From the IMG/VR virus record IMGVR_UViG_3300046516_000521, positions 1 through 34,322 of that record: DNA of 34,322 bases, one strand, 5' to 3'. Origin of the DNA: a virus. The notes below the pieces were generated by a model. The model ran no database searches and was not told the DNA's origin. It saw nothing but the letters and a program-made list of their open reading frames with translations. The position numbers and the translations under genes are program-made. Below, piece by piece: positions 2,080 to 15,706 of this stretch; position 1 is the stretch's first letter; every line of letters begins with the position of its first letter.

Positions 2080-2321
2080 GCTACGAATTTTCGAAACTGC
2101 CCAAGGCGAGCTTGCGGGTTAACCGGAGGCTCACGTGCCATGCGGAGAATAGTGAGGTACGTTTTACAATTCACGAGAGCTCGGGGGTTACCTCGCTCAC
2201 CGCGGAAGAGGCTCAGATGCTTGCACGTTGGCTGAGTGCGTACTTCCCGCCGGCCGGGCTCGGACCCGATGAGCCCATGCCGCCCTACGCCCAGCCGCTT
2301 AAAGATCGGTGGCGGGAATGA
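2076..2321 (+). CDS. hypothetical protein, 81 residues
   Basis: ATGA overlap at both ends. The product begins with a probable beta sheet (LTCHAENSEVRFTIHESSG), followed by a helix (SLTAEEAQMLARWLSAYF) and a proline-rich tail. This layout of beta strands, an LTAEEA-type helix and a tail is common in short phage proteins of unknown role. No family named. Confidence 0.65.
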   Translation: MSYEFSKLPKASLRVNRRLTCHAENSEVRFTIHESSGVTSLTAEEAQMLARWLSAYFPPAGLGPDEPMPPYAQPLKDRWRE

Positions 2322-2593
2322 GCGCACGAGAGCTCAGCGCACGCGAGCTCGCGCGGCAAGCCGGGGAGAAGACATTCCGCGGCAAGCCATGCCTTCGCGG
2401 GCATGCCGGCTTGCGGAAGGTGGCGAATGGGAATTGCGTCGCATGCTCTCTCGGGCGGGAGCAGGTCCCGACGCGGCAGAAACATGCCTTACAGCGGAAT
2501 ACGATCTACGCCTTGCTCTACGCGCAAGAATTCGACGCGTTGGGCTGGCGTTGGCGAGCCGCGAGCCCGAACTCTGAGGAGAAAGCGATATGA
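2318..2593 (+). CDS. small zinc-knuckle protein (endonuclease VII-like finger)
   Basis: A 91-residue protein. The in-frame GTG at 2309 is possible, but ATG 2318 gives the standard ATGA overlap. Residues 20-43 contain FRGKPC, GH and NGNCVAC, a C-x3-H-x10-C-x2-C metal site with C25, H29, C40 and C43. This pattern (pC..GH....v.ng.C..C) is familiar from phage proteins related to recombination endonuclease VII and from stand-alone phage zinc fingers. The nuclease core itself is not seen here, so this is a finger without an obvious catalytic domain. It resembles the knuckles repeated in the gene at 5796. Its position just before the replication ATPase suggests a nucleic-acid-binding accessory role, which is inference. 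Confidence 0.65.
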   Translation: MSARELSARELARQAGEKTFRGKPCLRGHAGLRKVANGNCVACSLGREQVPTRQKHALQRNTIYALLYAQEFDALGWRWRAASPNSEEKAI

Positions 2594-3549
2594 CAACCCC
2601 AACACCCGGTGAACTCGCCATGCCAGAATTCATGAGCTACCCGTGGCAGGAACCTGTCCCGATCCTAAGCCCCTGGCTGATGAGCGGCGGGATTTGCCAA
2701 CTCTACGGCATGCGCGGCGGCGGGAAGACGAATGTCTCGATTGCGCTTTCGATCGCTGTGAGCACGGGCAGCGCACTCTTCTCCGACATGTTCGCGCCGC
2801 GCCCCTACCGTGTGCTCTATGTCGATGGTGAGATGGTCCCGAGCCAAGTGGTCACCCGGTATCGTAAGTTCTACGCTGGGCTCGGCCAACGGTGCTCGGC
2901 TAACCTGTGTTACATGTCCCATGCGGCCTTCCCGGACGGTATCCCAACGCTCTACGACCCGAGCTCGGGCGGTCGGCAAATGATCGAGCGAGCCGCGGCG
3001 CGGCATCGCGCGGACCTTATCATCCTGGATAACATTAGCTCGCTGGTGCGCGGCGGCGAAGAAAACTCGAATGACGCCTGGGAACCGGTCAACGACTGGC
3101 TGCTCGGGCTGCGCCGGCTCAACTACACGACCCTGCTAATCCACCATGCGGGTAAGCGAGCGTTGGACGGGTCGATCCGCCAGCGTGGCGGCTCGAAGAA
3201 GGAAGACGCTATGGACTGTGTAGTCCAGATCGATGAGACGGCGAAGCCGAAGGACGGCAAGATCCCGTTGCGTTGGACATACGAGAAATGCCGCACGTTT
3301 ACCCCGGCGAGCTCGCACTTCGATTTCTCGCTCGTCTTCGATGACGCCGCGGGCAAGGCGTGGATCGAGGAAGGGCATTACGCGAAGATCGAGAACCAGC
3401 CGCCGCCATATTGGCTCGAAGAAGCGATCAAGCTTAAAGCGCAGGGGATGAGCCTACGCTTTATCGCGAAAACCTACGACGTGAGCCATACGACGGTGCA
3501 GAATTACCTGTCAATGGCGAAAAAAACCACACTTTCCAGCATGAGCTAA
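2590..3549 (+). CDS. RepA-like AAA ATPase / replicative helicase with C-terminal HTH
   Basis: A 319-residue protein of the RecA-fold AAA_25 (RepA helicase-like) group. Walker A is GMRGGGKTN at residues 40-48 with K46. A strand with acidic end VLYVDGEM follows. Walker B is LIILDN near residue 145. A sensor-like LLIHHAGK comes next, then RQRGGSKKEDAMD, typical of RepA and RadA-like ATPases. Residues 275-310 (EEAIKLKAQGMSLRFIAKTY and DVSHTTVQNYL) form a resolvase-like helix-turn-helix that could bind origin DNA. The start at 2590 overlaps the previous stop; a later ATG at 2620 is possible. The AT-rich inverted repeat directly downstream fits a role in initiation. Family membership is clear; helicase action at that site is inferred. 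Confidence 0.85.
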   Translation: MTTPTPGELAMPEFMSYPWQEPVPILSPWLMSGGICQLYGMRGGGKTNVSIALSIAVSTGSALFSDMFAPRPYRVLYVDGEMVPSQVVTRYRKFYAGLGQRCSANLCYMSHAAFPDGIPTLYDPSSGGRQMIERAAARHRADLIILDNISSLVRGGEENSNDAWEPVNDWLLGLRRLNYTTLLIHHAGKRALDGSIRQRGGSKKEDAMDCVVQIDETAKPKDGKIPLRWTYEKCRTFTPASSHFDFSLVFDDAAGKAWIEEGHYAKIENQPPPYWLEEAIKLKAQGMSLRFIAKTYDVSHTTVQNYLSMAKKTTLSSMS

Positions 3550-3567
3550 GTCGCTGAAATTCCTCGT

Positions 3568-3629
3568 GCATTCGGCTGGATTTTGGAAACCACCTATATA
3601 TAAATATATAAAGGTTTCCAGCCGAATGC
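3568..3629. repeat. AT-rich inverted-repeat block, candidate replication origin
   Basis: In the 198-base gap after the RepA-like gene, GCATTCGGCTGG (3568-3579) is exactly repeated in inverted form as CCAGCCGAATGC (3618-3629). An inner pair, GGAAACC (3585-3591) and GGTTTCC (3613-3619), flanks a core of about 20 bases of A and T (3595-3612, TATATATAAATATATAAA). Such an A/T run is out of place in this GC-rich genome. Known origins often combine inverted repeats with an AT-rich unwinding element beside the initiator gene. It could also be a promoter (TATATA/TATAAA boxes) or a transcription-terminating hairpin, although no T-run follows. Confidence 0.5.
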
Positions 3630-3640
3630 CAGCCTGCGAA

Positions 3641-3659
3641 GCCGCCTTTATAGGGCGGC
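3641..3659. repeat. small GC hairpin
   Basis: GCCGCC (3641-3646) and GGCGGC (3654-3659) can pair around a 7-base loop. There is no downstream T-tract, so a terminator call is weak. It may be part of the candidate origin region. Confidence 0.3.
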
Positions 3660-3712
3660 GTTCGCTAGTAGGCTAAGCAGGACATTCTAGGCGCGCCCTT
3701 GCCAACCACCTC

Positions 3713-7967: not shown

Positions 7968-8114
7968 ATGATCTCCGACCTTCCCGCGGACAACATCATC
8001 AGCTTCACGATCGAAGCTGTGAGCTATGCAACCTCGGTCGGCTGCGTCCTCTGCGCCGTGGCCATCATCGGGGTCCTCCTCCTCATCAACTACCTAGAGA
8101 AGTCAGCGCCGTGA
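7968..8114 (+). CDS. holin-like membrane peptide, 48 residues
   Basis: ATG 7968 lies 4 bases after the endolysin stop. Residues 1-18 are polar and acidic (ISDLPADNIISFTIEAVSYA), then one hydrophobic helix runs to about residue 41 (SVGCVLCAVAIIGVLLLINY), ending in a short basic tail. A single-membrane-span protein next to the endolysin is typical of a class III-like or small holin. It could instead be an inner-membrane spanin component or antiholin. Its TGA overlaps the GTG of the glycosyltransferase gene. The role is inferred from location and hydropathy. Confidence 0.55.
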   Translation: MISDLPADNIISFTIEAVSYATSVGCVLCAVAIIGVLLLINYLEKSAP

Positions 8115-8785
8115 AAAAAGAGAAATCCATCCTCATGGGCATGCCGAGCGGGGATACGATCGTCGCTCAGACTGCCATGTGTTTTACCAACGCAGCCTTC
8201 GCCCTTCGCAACGCCGGCTACCACGTCGCGTGGCTGAATACCACGGGAACGCTCGTCGACTGGAACCAGTATGAACTCGCTATGGAATGCCTGGAAGGCG
8301 GTCACGACTACCTCTGGCTCATTGATAGTGACATGTTCTTTGCTGGCGATGTCGGGATTGATCTCATCCGTCGCGATAAGGATATCGTGGGATGCGACTA
8401 CCGCAGCCGCAAGGCGCCTCGCGAGTTCACTACGAAGTTTCACGAGGGCAAGGGCCGCGGACCCGAACTGACCCATACGAGTTCCGAGGATACCGGCTGC
8501 CGGGAGGTGAATTTCTGCGCTACCGGGATGCTCATGATCCGCAGACGCGTATTTGAGAAAATGCCGCCGCCGTGGTTCCGCTGCACGGTCGAGCTAACCG
8601 ATGGGAAGATCATGCGGACGGGGAACGATGCGAACTTCTGCATAGACGCCCAGAAGCATGGCTTTCACGTATGGTGCGACTTCTACGCCTCGCGCAAAGT
8701 CGCGCACATTGGCCAGTTCCCGCTCTTCCGGGACATGGCTCACCCGCCTGCTCCCGCCCACGATGACAACCTACCGAAAGGCTGA
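8111..8785 (+). CDS. DxD glycosyltransferase (GT-A type), copy 1
   Basis: A 224-residue protein with GTG start at 8111 overlapping the previous TGA. The N-terminal strand SILMGMPSGDT, the segment NTTGTLVDWNQYELAMECLE and the metal-binding LIDSDMFF (D72 and D74) are the hallmarks of a small GT-A glycosyltransferase. Later features are VGCDYRSRK, ATGMLMIRR and the acidic GNDANFC segment. The protein transfers a sugar from a nucleotide donor; the acceptor cannot be read. Phage enzymes of this kind may modify DNA bases, virion proteins or host surface glycans. It is paralogous to the next gene. There is an inserted stretch (GKGRGPELTHTSSEDTGC) absent from the paralogue. Confidence 0.8.
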   Translation: MKKEKSILMGMPSGDTIVAQTAMCFTNAAFALRNAGYHVAWLNTTGTLVDWNQYELAMECLEGGHDYLWLIDSDMFFAGDVGIDLIRRDKDIVGCDYRSRKAPREFTTKFHEGKGRGPELTHTSSEDTGCREVNFCATGMLMIRRRVFEKMPPPWFRCTVELTDGKIMRTGNDANFCIDAQKHGFHVWCDFYASRKVAHIGQFPLFRDMAHPPAPAHDDNLPKG

Positions 8786-8791
8786 CCACGC

Positions 8792-9385
8792 ATGAAAATC
8801 CTCATCGGAATGCCCTGCGGCGAGACGATCAAGACGGATACGGTCTTCGATCTCGTCCGCGGGATGGCCGCTCTCCGGGCGGACGGGCACACGCTCGGGT
8901 TCGCGACGGAAGAGGGAACCCTAGTCGACGAGAACCAAAACCGCCTCGCACAGGCGGCTCTCGACGCCGGGGTCGACGCCCTTTGGCTCATCGACAGCGA
9001 CATGACCTTCGATCCGCGCGTAGGCGTCGCACTCGCCAGACACCTCACCTACGGCGGTCATGATGTAGTCGGGTGCACGTACCCTAAGCGCAAGTTCCCG
9101 CACAACCTCGTCGGCAAGCATCTGGACGGGCGGAAGTTCGAACGCTACGAAGTCGGCGAGCAGCAGGTCGACTACCTCGGAACCGGCATGCTCATGATCC
9201 GCACGGCCCTCTTCCGCACCTTCCCGCGGCCATGGTTCAAATGCATCGCTGGGGCGGAGAGCTCGGACTACGTGGGAAATGACATGTTCTTCTGCCGCGC
9301 TGTCGGCGCGCCGATCATCTGCGATTTCGATTACTCGCGGGACGTCGGCCATACCGGCCAGATAACTCACAGGATGGACGCATGA
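8792..9385 (+). CDS. DxD glycosyltransferase (GT-A type), copy 2
   Basis: A 197-residue paralogue of the preceding gene. It shares ILIGMPCGETIKTD, EEGTLVDENQNRLAQAAL, LWLIDSDMTF (D68 and D70), VVGCTYPKRKFP, GTGMLMIR and VGNDMFFC, ending in DVGHTGQ. The overall order is identical, so the pair arose by tandem duplication or joint acquisition. Catalytic residues look intact in both. Separated from the first by only 6 bases, it should be produced from the same message. The acceptor is unknown. Confidence 0.8.
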   Translation: MKILIGMPCGETIKTDTVFDLVRGMAALRADGHTLGFATEEGTLVDENQNRLAQAALDAGVDALWLIDSDMTFDPRVGVALARHLTYGGHDVVGCTYPKRKFPHNLVGKHLDGRKFERYEVGEQQVDYLGTGMLMIRTALFRTFPRPWFKCIAGAESSDYVGNDMFFCRAVGAPIICDFDYSRDVGHTGQITHRMDA

Positions 9386-12484: not shown

Positions 12485-12727
12485 ATGCTTTTCCTAGACG
12501 AGAACGGCCAGCCTACCCAAGTCGCTGACCGCGTACCCACGGATCGCATACGTGCGACCGTGCACTTACTCGTTAACATGATGGTCCGCGCCGGCACCGT
12601 AGCCGGTGAGTTCCTGGACATGCCGCAGCTTTGGGGCTGGCCTCGCGCAACCCGCGGCGGCGATCGCCCCGCACCTAGCCCGCCGGCTAACCCGACAGAT
12701 CGCCCAGCGGACGGCTGGAAGTCATGA
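12485..12727 (+). CDS. hypothetical protein, 80 residues
   Basis: ATG 12485 follows AAAAGGAAAGG, after the terminator and an AT-rich leader, so this is the first gene of the polymerase block. The N-terminal half is ordered (MLFLDENGQPTQVADRVPTD, then IRATVHLLVNMMVRAGTVAG); the C-terminal half is Pro/Arg/Asp-rich and probably flexible. It is coupled by ATGA to the UDG-exonuclease gene. Function unknown. Confidence 0.6.
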   Translation: MLFLDENGQPTQVADRVPTDRIRATVHLLVNMMVRAGTVAGEFLDMPQLWGWPRATRGGDRPAPSPPANPTDRPADGWKS

Positions 12728-13896
12728 CCCTACGCTCACAGCTTGCCGCCGATCCTGGCGGCATTTTCTTTCTAGGAGATTGGCCCGATGACGAAGCAAC
12801 AGTCAAAGGATGGCCGTTTCTTGGCAGTGATGGTCATCTCCTTTCCCGTGCTCTTAGGACTGTTGGCCTTGTGGACACTTCAAATCCTCTGGCAGACTAC
12901 CTCGGAGCGCCTCTCGCGGAGACGCGCCGCTTACTCTGGGAGCGTCGCGCACACTCTTTCGCGTGCGTTCTACGGGATCAGCCCGCCCGATCTGATCTTC
13001 GCTCTGTGTGCGCTTCCCTGAAGGAGGCTTCGACGTGGGATGGACCTACGCTCCCGAGTATCGCCGACGTGGGATGCCTAAGACCGGAGCACTACCCGGC
13101 TCTCCGCCAGATAGCCAAAGAGATCGCGGCGATGGCACCGAATATCGTGGTCTGTCTCGGCGCACTTCCCCTTTGGTTGCTCACTGGTCACGGCTCGACC
13201 GACGAATGGCGTGGGGCCGTGCGGAGCGTGCCGCAGGACGCTCCGATTATGCTGCTGGCGTCGGAAGCAGAACGCCGCTCACTCGCCTCCCTCAAACTCC
13301 TTCCGACCTACGGGCTCTCCCGCGTGAACCAGCAGTACAAGCTACTCGTCCCGCTGGTTGCGGACCTGACGAAGGTGAGACATGAAGCAGACTTCCCCGA
13401 GATCCGGCCACTGGAAATTGCCGTTTGGTTGGAACCTGAACTGGTCGATCTCGACAGATTTTACGAGAGGCATGTCGCCACTTCAGACCTTATCACTCTT
13501 GATATCGAGACCGCTGTCGGGCAGATCGTTTGTGTTCAAGTCGGTACGGACCCGAGCACAGCCCTCGTCCTCCCGTTCGTAGACTACAGGAAGCCGAGCC
13601 GGAGCTACTGGTCGACGGAGTGGGAGGAGCTCGCCGCGTGGGAATGGCTGGCTCGGGTCTGCGAGACGGCGACGGCCAAGCTCGGGCAGAACTTCGCAGC
13701 CTACGATCTCTTCTGGCTTCTCGACCGGGCGGGAACCTCCGTTCGGAACTACCGTCATGACCTTCGCCTGATCCACCATATCCTACAGCCCGAGCTGCCC
13801 AAGTCCCTCGCCTTCATGGGCAGCATGTATACCGGCATGCCGAAATGGAAGGCTAACGTCCACCATGGCGGGACCGATGACAAGAGGGATAGCTGA
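12724..13896 (+). CDS. UDG-like domain fused to the first part of a DnaQ-like 3'-5' exonuclease
   Basis: A 390-residue protein. Residues 15-50 (FFLGDWPDDE, then GWPFLGSDGHLLSRAL) follow the family 4/5 uracil-DNA glycosylase layout, with the strand PNIVVCLGALPLWLLTG near 140-155. The usual TxHPS motif is replaced by TYGLS with G197 at the histidine position, so glycosylase activity is doubtful. Residues 255-370 are a DnaQ-like exonuclease: motif I LDIET (D260, E262), motif II NFAAYD (N323, D328), then the PELPKSLAFMGSMYTGMPKW segment typical of phage family A polymerases. Motif III is missing here and reappears in the polymerase protein at 14081. The product probably proofreads together with that protein. 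Confidence 0.8.
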   Translation: MTLRSQLAADPGGIFFLGDWPDDEATVKGWPFLGSDGHLLSRALRTVGLVDTSNPLADYLGAPLAETRRLLWERRAHSFACVLRDQPARSDLRSVCASLKEASTWDGPTLPSIADVGCLRPEHYPALRQIAKEIAAMAPNIVVCLGALPLWLLTGHGSTDEWRGAVRSVPQDAPIMLLASEAERRSLASLKLLPTYGLSRVNQQYKLLVPLVADLTKVRHEADFPEIRPLEIAVWLEPELVDLDRFYERHVATSDLITLDIETAVGQIVCVQVGTDPSTALVLPFVDYRKPSRSYWSTEWEELAAWEWLARVCETATAKLGQNFAAYDLFWLLDRAGTSVRNYRHDLRLIHHILQPELPKSLAFMGSMYTGMPKWKANVHHGGTDDKRDS

Positions 13897-14084
13897 TGAT
13901 CCAACTCTTCCTACACCTCCCGAAGGACTTCCCGATGAAAGCGAGCAGCACGATCCAACTTGACATTCGTGATGAGGAGGATCGCGCTTACACCTTGCAC
14001 CTTACCGGGACTGCCTGGACAAAACTTCTCTGCGGGAACGGTCCTGTTGAGGCATCGCTGATCACCCCCGAAGGTGCGCGATGA
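13896..14084 (+). CDS. small protein inserted between exonuclease and polymerase genes
   Basis: A 62-residue protein. ATG 13896 overlaps the previous TGA (TGATG), and its stop overlaps the polymerase ATG (ATGA). The sequence reads as strands (STIQLDIRDEEDRAYTLHLT, then AWTKLLCGNGPVEASLITPE). It has no resemblance to an exonuclease or polymerase segment, nor to a homing endonuclease. It lies exactly where the exonuclease domain is cut between motifs II and III. Function unknown; it may bridge the two halves or simply be a passenger gene. Confidence 0.65.
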   Translation: MIQLFLHLPKDFPMKASSTIQLDIRDEEDRAYTLHLTGTAWTKLLCGNGPVEASLITPEGAR

Positions 14085-15706
14085 TCATCGTCCGAGATCC
14101 CTACGGGCCAGGGCTTGACGGGCAGCAAAGCTACTGGCTCTACGGCGCCAACGACGTGCTCGGCACGCGGCAAGCTTTCGACGTGCTCTACCCGCAGCTC
14201 ACCGGGGACGATCTCACCCTGTACCATGCGTCCTTCGCGTTCCAAGCACCTTGCCTCGCGATGACCCTGCGGGGTACCCGCGTCGACGACGGCGTGTGCT
14301 CCGCGGCCATCCGCGGCTGCGACACGGACGAAGCAGCCGCGATCACCTTCCTCAACGACCATCCAACGATCAAGGAGAAATGGGATGTCCTCGGACCTCG
14401 CCCCGCTGGTGAAAGATGCAAGCTCTATCCTGGCAAGAGCCCAGCAAGCCGGCATAATTGGGTACCTAGAGGCGGCACGCCTGATGACCAGAGTTGTAAA
14501 CATTGCGGCGGAGCTCGGCTCGTTGGACAGGCGTTCAACCCTCACTCCTCCTCCCAATGCGCCCATCTTCTCTACGATATCCTCGGAATGAAGGTCCGGT
14601 ACTCCCGGAAGAACAAGCCGGACGGTACCCGGAGCGTGACCACGGATGACGAAGCTCTCGAAGCCCTCGCGGTCAAGTACCCGGAGAGCTCCGAGCTTAT
14701 CGACCGCATCCTCTCAGCCCGCGGGCTCCGCAAGCAGTCCGGGATGCTGAAGTCCCGGCGGGATGCGGACGGCCGCTGGCGGAGCACCTTCAACGTGTGC
14801 GCTGCGGAGACGGGGCGCATGTCCTCGTCCAAGAGCCCCTACCGCACGGGCAACAACATGCAGAACATTGCGGATAAGAACCGTGGGATATTCATTCCCG
14901 ACCCCGGCCTTGTCCTCTTCTACGCGGACCTTGAACAGGCGGAGAGCAAGATCATCGCCTACGATGCCCGCTCACCTCAGGACATAGAGGATCACGAACA
15001 TGGCGATACCCATACCGGCCTCGCGAAGACGCTATTTCCCGATCTCCCCTGGGGAACCCGACCCGATCGCGAGATCGCAGACCTTCCCCTCCCTTGGGAC
15101 CCGGAGCACAGTTACCGTCACGTCGCTAAGATCGTCCGACACGGGACTAACATCGGAATGTCAGCAACAGGTGTTGCTCGACAACTTCACCAGCCTAGAG
15201 CCGTTGGTGGAACGATGCGTGACAGATACTTTACGCGATACCCTGAGAACCTGGCTCGGCAAATGGAAATCAGAAGGGAAGTCCGGGATACCGGAGTTCT
15301 CCGCAGTCCTCTTGGGAACACTCGACGCTTCCTTGGCCGGCTGTGGGAAGACGATGTTCAGCGTGAAGCTCTCGCTCAGACCCAGCAGAGTACCGTCGCA
15401 TGGATGCTGAACTTTGCCATGTGGAGGATCTGGTATGAGCTGGACGGCCGGCTTAATCTCGGCTCTCCGCCACGCGAGAGCGATCCTAACCGGGTATGGC
15501 TTCTCGGCCAAATACACGATGCCGTTCTCGGACTGGTACGGCCCGGAGATCTCGACGCTCTACGACGGGTCAAGGAGATCATGGAGTGCCCCGTGCTCAT
15601 CCATGGCGTGCCCGTCCGCATCGGAGCGGAAGTCGCAGTCGGGAAATCCTGGGCTCACAGCGATCTCAGAGCACTACGTTGGGAGCGCGCCGATGCGCCG
15701 CTATGA
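14081..15706 (+). CDS. family A DNA polymerase, lacking exonuclease motifs I and II
   Basis: A 541-residue protein. Residues 21-29 (YGANDVLGT, D25) are exonuclease motif III, followed by the YHASFAFQAPCLAMTLRGT hinge common to family A polymerases. A probable zinc ribbon (C112, H125-N-W, C137, C140) precedes the thumb. Motif A is YADLEQAES (D283, E287). Motif B is R346-x3-K350-x3-H354-x3-I358-G, where the usual Phe/Tyr at 354 and Tyr at 358 are replaced. Motif C is QIHDAV (H479, D480), with Ala in place of the usual Glu. The protein should be the replicative polymerase, paired with the separate exonuclease subunit. All three catalytic polymerase motifs are present and the reading frame is intact. 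Confidence 0.93.
   Translation: MIIVRDPYGPGLDGQQSYWLYGANDVLGTRQAFDVLYPQLTGDDLTLYHASFAFQAPCLAMTLRGTRVDDGVCSAAIRGCDTDEAAAITFLNDHPTIKEKWDVLGPRPAGERCKLYPGKSPASRHNWVPRGGTPDDQSCKHCGGARLVGQAFNPHSSSQCAHLLYDILGMKVRYSRKNKPDGTRSVTTDDEALEALAVKYPESSELIDRILSARGLRKQSGMLKSRRDADGRWRSTFNVCAAETGRMSSSKSPYRTGNNMQNIADKNRGIFIPDPGLVLFYADLEQAESKIIAYDARSPQDIEDHEHGDTHTGLAKTLFPDLPWGTRPDREIADLPLPWDPEHSYRHVAKIVRHGTNIGMSATGVARQLHQPRAVGGTMRDRYFTRYPENLARQMEIRREVRDTGVLRSPLGNTRRFLGRLWEDDVQREALAQTQQSTVAWMLNFAMWRIWYELDGRLNLGSPPRESDPNRVWLLGQIHDAVLGLVRPGDLDALRRVKEIMECPVLIHGVPVRIGAEVAVGKSWAHSDLRALRWERADAPL

Follow-up and report, generated by a model that had tools for sequence, protein, structure and literature searches.

A family A phage DNA polymerase with its exonuclease motifs divided between two genes across a large viral lineage

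We analyzed a viral contig of 34.3 kb (34,322 nt; IMG/VR record IMGVR_UViG_3300046516_000521), hereafter the window, whose coordinates are used throughout, and found that the 3'-5' exonuclease domain of its family A DNA polymerase is cut in two. Motifs I and II lie on one gene (the exo half), motif III opens the polymerase gene (the polymerase half), and the same cut is fixed across a clade of related phages. The residues of the divided site are invariant on both chains, and positions in the two chains co-vary above shuffled controls. Judging from these sequence patterns, the two genes very probably encode a two-subunit polymerase whose proofreading site lies across the chain interface and which goes back to one ancient split. 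The features of the locus are as follows.

12724..13896, plus strand: first gene (390 aa), the exo half, with a family-4 UDG-like N-terminal domain (approximately aa 1-225) followed by a 3'-5' exonuclease core without motif III
13501..13509, plus strand: exonuclease motif I (D260, E262)
13690..13707, plus strand: exonuclease motif II (N323, D328)
13852..13893, plus strand: C-terminal tail of the exo half (aa 377-390, ending TDDKRDS)
13894..13898, plus strand: TGATG stop/start overlap between the exo half and the 62-aa gene
13896..14084, plus strand: 62-aa gene between the halves, an incidental passenger
14081..14084, plus strand: ATGA stop/start overlap between the 62-aa gene and the polymerase gene
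14081..15706, plus strand: second gene (541 aa), the polymerase half, with the motif III helix followed by a family A polymerase domain
14141..14155, plus strand: exonuclease motif III (Y21, D25) on the polymerase chain
14141..14206, plus strand: motif III helix (aa 21-42), which co-varies with the exonuclease core

An earlier note on this DNA had listed these three open reading frames (ORFs) and described tight overlaps between them; all three were recovered, in three different frames, with both overlaps in place. The residues and the profile matches likewise confirmed its assignment of motifs I and II to the first protein and of motif III to the head of the polymerase. The profile match, repeated genome-wide, placed the first protein at positions 555-792 of phrog_17 (phage DNA polymerase, 1445 positions) and the second at 805-1233. 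About 12 positions are absent between the halves, and thus the cut falls inside the exonuclease. In four relatives as well as the window, phrog_17 breaks at 786-801 / 796-809; in Caulobacter phage Kuura the profile was bridged only across stops. The Pfam model PF01612 is itself divided in the relative L145, with positions 4-129 in the exo ORF and 150-173 in the polymerase ORF. As the note had proposed, both the PHROG and the Pfam models therefore break between motifs II and III and not at the boundary between exonuclease and polymerase. Mapped by profile onto solved structures, residues 13-127 of the Klenow chain correspond to the exo half and residues 171-604 to the polymerase half. The two-gene system holds all three motifs of a DEDDy exonuclease (PF01612 type), although not on one polypeptide.

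The remaining parts of both chains are those of a phage polymerase. The polymerase half matches PF00476 (E-value 1.6e-31; 110 bits vs a curated cut-off of 34.3), and its D283, K350 and H479/D480, which we take to be the letters of polymerase motifs A, B and C, are invariant or nearly so in 37 relatives. The first protein carries a UDG fold (PF03167, E-value 8e-6; Z 18 to 1ui1). Its AlphaFold model (predicted local distance difference test, pLDDT, 89.9) combines the UDG-like domain with the exonuclease sheet, the tail after W375-K376 being poorly ordered and of low pLDDT in this fold of the half on its own. Foldseek searches with the model gave the phiLo polymerase 9qhs, a fused family A enzyme, as the top match and also matched Klenow. 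Two segments of these chains stand out beside the divided domain. The family-4-like UDG domain spans 12724-13398 on the exo half, and the polymerase half has an extra segment at 14417-14506 with C113, H125, C139 and C142 (zinc-ribbon-like), which is also found in the relative L002 and is absent from Kuura and the other aligned relatives.

To place the split among relatives, viral contigs were scanned with alignments, since the exo half as a single-protein query found no match among them. The same split was found in 307 of 338 relative loci, 25 were ended by the contig or locus end, and the six with a fused gene are all outgroups; every close relative is split. The loci comprise 236 distinct protein pairs (some contigs were fetched twice), and because each scan took the best 80 of more than 500 candidates, the clade is larger than counted. 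The split is thus not peculiar to the window genome. The relative L002 has the same arrangement with a polymerase 71% identical, as does Kuura, the sole isolate found among 50,697 phage records. A prophage-host search in genome contigs returned three matching contigs only, all metagenome-assembled, which gave no host assignment. The split group is a large, nearly wholly uncultured lineage of bacterial viruses. These relatives also refute an assembly error or pseudogene in the window contig, an explanation of negligible probability: nothing in its favor was found, and comparison with L002 showed a coding pattern (third-position change 0.50-0.53 vs 0.18-0.31 at the first two positions). Two loci depart in other ways. 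At the end of the L053 contig (5096-6143), fragments of the polymerase half appear on both strands, likely through an assembly chimera or inversion. In L115 (2157-3704) this half consists of two ORFs (2157-3302 and 3345-3704), possibly owing to a further split or a frameshift.

Both phylogenies place the split rows on one side of a branch (89/96 in the polymerase tree, 100/98 in the exo-half tree) and exclude the fused homologues, among them MW202489, Mel-JY34, EBPR podovirus 3 and Tiera, from the split group. The exact root and order are unsure, owing to the long branches of some rows in both trees. These sequence comparisons show a single ancient split, early in a large phage lineage and in the variable loop between motifs II and III. 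Pairwise distances of the two halves correlate (r = 0.93), which shared ancestry would give as well.

The catalytic residues have been kept on both sides of the cut. D260, E262, N323 and D328, together with D346, W375 and K376, are invariant in all 147 distinct exo halves, and Y21 and D25 in all 157 polymerase halves in which the column is present; the median column identity is approximately 0.52-0.55. We also looked for an intact motif III in the first protein and found none: neither Y-x3-D nor H-x4-D is conserved past motif II in the 147 exo halves, where the invariant columns are D346, E357, K360, L362, W375 and K376. One candidate, a DEDDh motif III (H-x4-D) at H380/D385 in the window's exo tail, was rejected, since L002 has a different spacing and most other members lack the histidines. 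The tested records yielded no second exonuclease of the PolA or DnaQ type.

We considered whether the split instead killed or freed the exonuclease, leaving the exo half inactive or as a stand-alone protein (UDG-like or DNA-binding) and the motif III helix as a structural leftover. The distance between the halves, up to 4.9 kb with large unrelated genes in between, speaks for this, as does the confident AlphaFold fold of the exo half alone. However, the metal-binding residues remain invariant on both chains (147 and 157 distinct proteins) at a mean column identity of approximately 33-35%, and covariation links the exonuclease core with the motif III helix. A PolA with a dead exonuclease, moreover, loses motif III: Mycobacterium smegmatis PolA (6vdc), which is without proofreading, has lost it, with YCALD aligned to VILRA. 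Overall, we regard a dead or freed exonuclease as unlikely.

The covariation was measured by mean-field direct coupling on the 236 pairs (~143 effective sequences) over a reduced column set. The top two inter-chain pairs were exo272-pol26 (z 10.7) and exo320-pol33 (z 8.7), and in 187 kin-preserving partner shuffles the real first score was reached in 0/187 and the real second in 0/187. In the exo-half model, strand 267-276 contains residue 272, and strand 318-321, just ahead of motif II, contains residue 320. The pairs thus tie the motif III helix to two strands, one next to motif I and the other preceding motif II, and in DEDD exonucleases motif III packs on the sheet that holds these strands. 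Several points count against a shared site. Both pairs kept stable ranks at pseudocounts 0.5 and 0.7 but stood at ranks 5 and 6 at 0.3, the signal of the pair 272-26 comes from a small number of clades (G/C 186, S/S 12, C/G 4), and the covariation as a whole is based on the ~143 effective sequences. In addition, the invariance of motif III could in principle stem from another role of the helix.

Another rival reading is rejoining of the halves into one polypeptide by an intron, trans-splicing, a frameshift or readthrough. Phage polymerase genes often carry introns (PMC10580990, PMC2988022), and in two loci, L068 (4164-4169) and L274 (~2185-2190), the halves lie in one frame and are divided only by a lone in-frame TAA, immediately followed by an ATG. 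Even there they are still separate. The window, by contrast, has three different frames and a whole gene between the halves, gaps reach ~4.9 kb elsewhere, and Rfam gave no group I or group II intron or ribozyme at the gathering score, nor in the window region at E<=1. The new termini are, moreover, conserved. The exo tail past W375-K376 measures 4-18 aa in the 147 members, mostly ending K-[RAK]-D-[ED]-stop, and the polymerase head conserves M-x-I-I-x-T. With medians of 13 aa for the tail and 22 aa for the head, the two loop ends together exceed the fused-gene linker of 9-20 aa. Rejoining is thus very unlikely.

What lies between the halves varies considerably. Across 169 loci the gap measures between -4 and 1,998 nt (alternative upstream starts account for two values below this range), and the inserted ORFs are small and unrelated, forming 95 clusters, with no gene at all in 12 loci. 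They include HNH endonuclease, DUF3310, DUF7768, DUF1937/DUF4406, MazG, methyltransferase and HTH genes. The widest gap, ~4.9 kb in L100 / L364, contains two large genes (697 and 785 aa); L100 was only an apparent exception, as its polymerase half was found farther along the same 44-kb contig. By appearance only, these two large genes are tail/virion-like. At the other extreme, the halves overlap in L039, L052, L086 and L095 (ATGA) and in L043 and L085. These loci and those with a single TAA indicate that the split persists without any insert, and it has been kept whatever stands between the genes.

The 62-aa protein of the window could be imagined as a third subunit bridging the halves, given the placement and overlapping junctions of its gene. 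Yet its gene occurs in the window and L002 only (~29-32% identity), and the other split members have unrelated genes or none. It was rejected as a subunit because it is not conserved, and a bridging role is very unlikely. As the earlier note had suspected, the ORF is unrelated to either half, with no match to a known family. It is not needed to explain the split: the site between the halves is a hot spot for small inserted genes, and the 62-aa protein is a passenger. For other phage genes in pieces, an origin by way of mobile endonucleases has been proposed (PMC2988022), and the HNH genes at this site would fit such an origin here.

We propose a two-subunit polymerase. Subunit 1 would hold the UDG-like domain and, with motifs I and II, the exonuclease sheet; in subunit 2 the motif III helix would be followed by the polymerase domain. 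The two would associate, with the N-terminal helix of the polymerase chain docking onto the exonuclease sheet of the other chain. Y21 and D25 would then complete a metal site with D260, E262 and D328, and the complex would proofread. In the window genome, the stop/start overlaps suggest that translation of the genes may be coupled. The idea that proofreading needs a two-chain site, already raised in the earlier note, is supported rather than proven by the invariant catalytic residues on both chains and the inter-chain covariation. There is also a precedent: the split T4-like gp43A/gp43B co-purify and polymerise, and a split NrdA is active (PMC2988022). DNA replication in this large, nearly uncultured lineage likely relies on a family A polymerase that is an obligate heterodimer. 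Proofreading would then require the two subunits to associate, and the amount of exo subunit could tune it, possibly giving a switchable pair of high-fidelity and low-fidelity polymerases.

Elsewhere in the window, two tandem related genes at 8111-9385 match phrog_1574 and a glycosyltransferase PHROG.

Among known systems, the closest is Kuura (OQ067476; PMC9959647), which has the same split point, with Kuura_029 as exo half and Kuura_026 as polymerase, but two unrelated small genes between them. The cut accounts for annotators missing the exo half, which is a "hypothetical protein" in Kuura; the words "split" and "exonuclease" are unmatched in the main text of the Kuura paper (PMC9959647), where the cut goes unremarked. 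Fused UDG-exonuclease-polymerase proteins (phrog_17; MW202489, Microcystis phage Mel-JY34, phiLo 9qhs) share the window's domain order and motifs, and MW202489 and Mel-JY34 are one polypeptide with a 16-17 aa linker where the window clade is cut. LUZ24 gp25 and phiEco32 gp74 (PMC3517423) are, as in the window, exonucleases encoded apart from the polymerase. However, the exonuclease domain of phiEco32 gp74 is complete and includes motif III (YCEQD; PF01612 18-168/173), and LUZ24 gp25 has the equivalent YCLQD. Since the exonuclease subunit carries motif III, their cut lies at the domain boundary; the 147 exo halves lack it and are not of this type.

In MEP401-type OM43 phages (PMC10580990) and Vibrio phage VS-ABTNL-3, the family A polymerase is likewise in two parts with a small ORF between, but cut in the polymerase domain. 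A related polymerase in MW202554 (L196 1228-3865) is split just past motif III, at the exonuclease/polymerase boundary, with ~150 nt between the parts. Phage polA has thus been split repeatedly. The T4-like gp43A/gp43B (PMC2988022) is also a phage polymerase split by insertion, although of family B and reported from a few phages, compared with a large clade here. A literature search that covered few subscription papers turned up no description of a family A phage polymerase cut within its exonuclease. Split phage polymerases are known, and a clade-fixed cut inside the exonuclease site appears to be undescribed. A proofreading site is usually formed by a single chain or a complete separate subunit; here hundreds of divergent phages keep it invariant on two chains, with the halves one stop codon to several kilobases apart, which would make it a natural and testable case of active-site assembly in trans.
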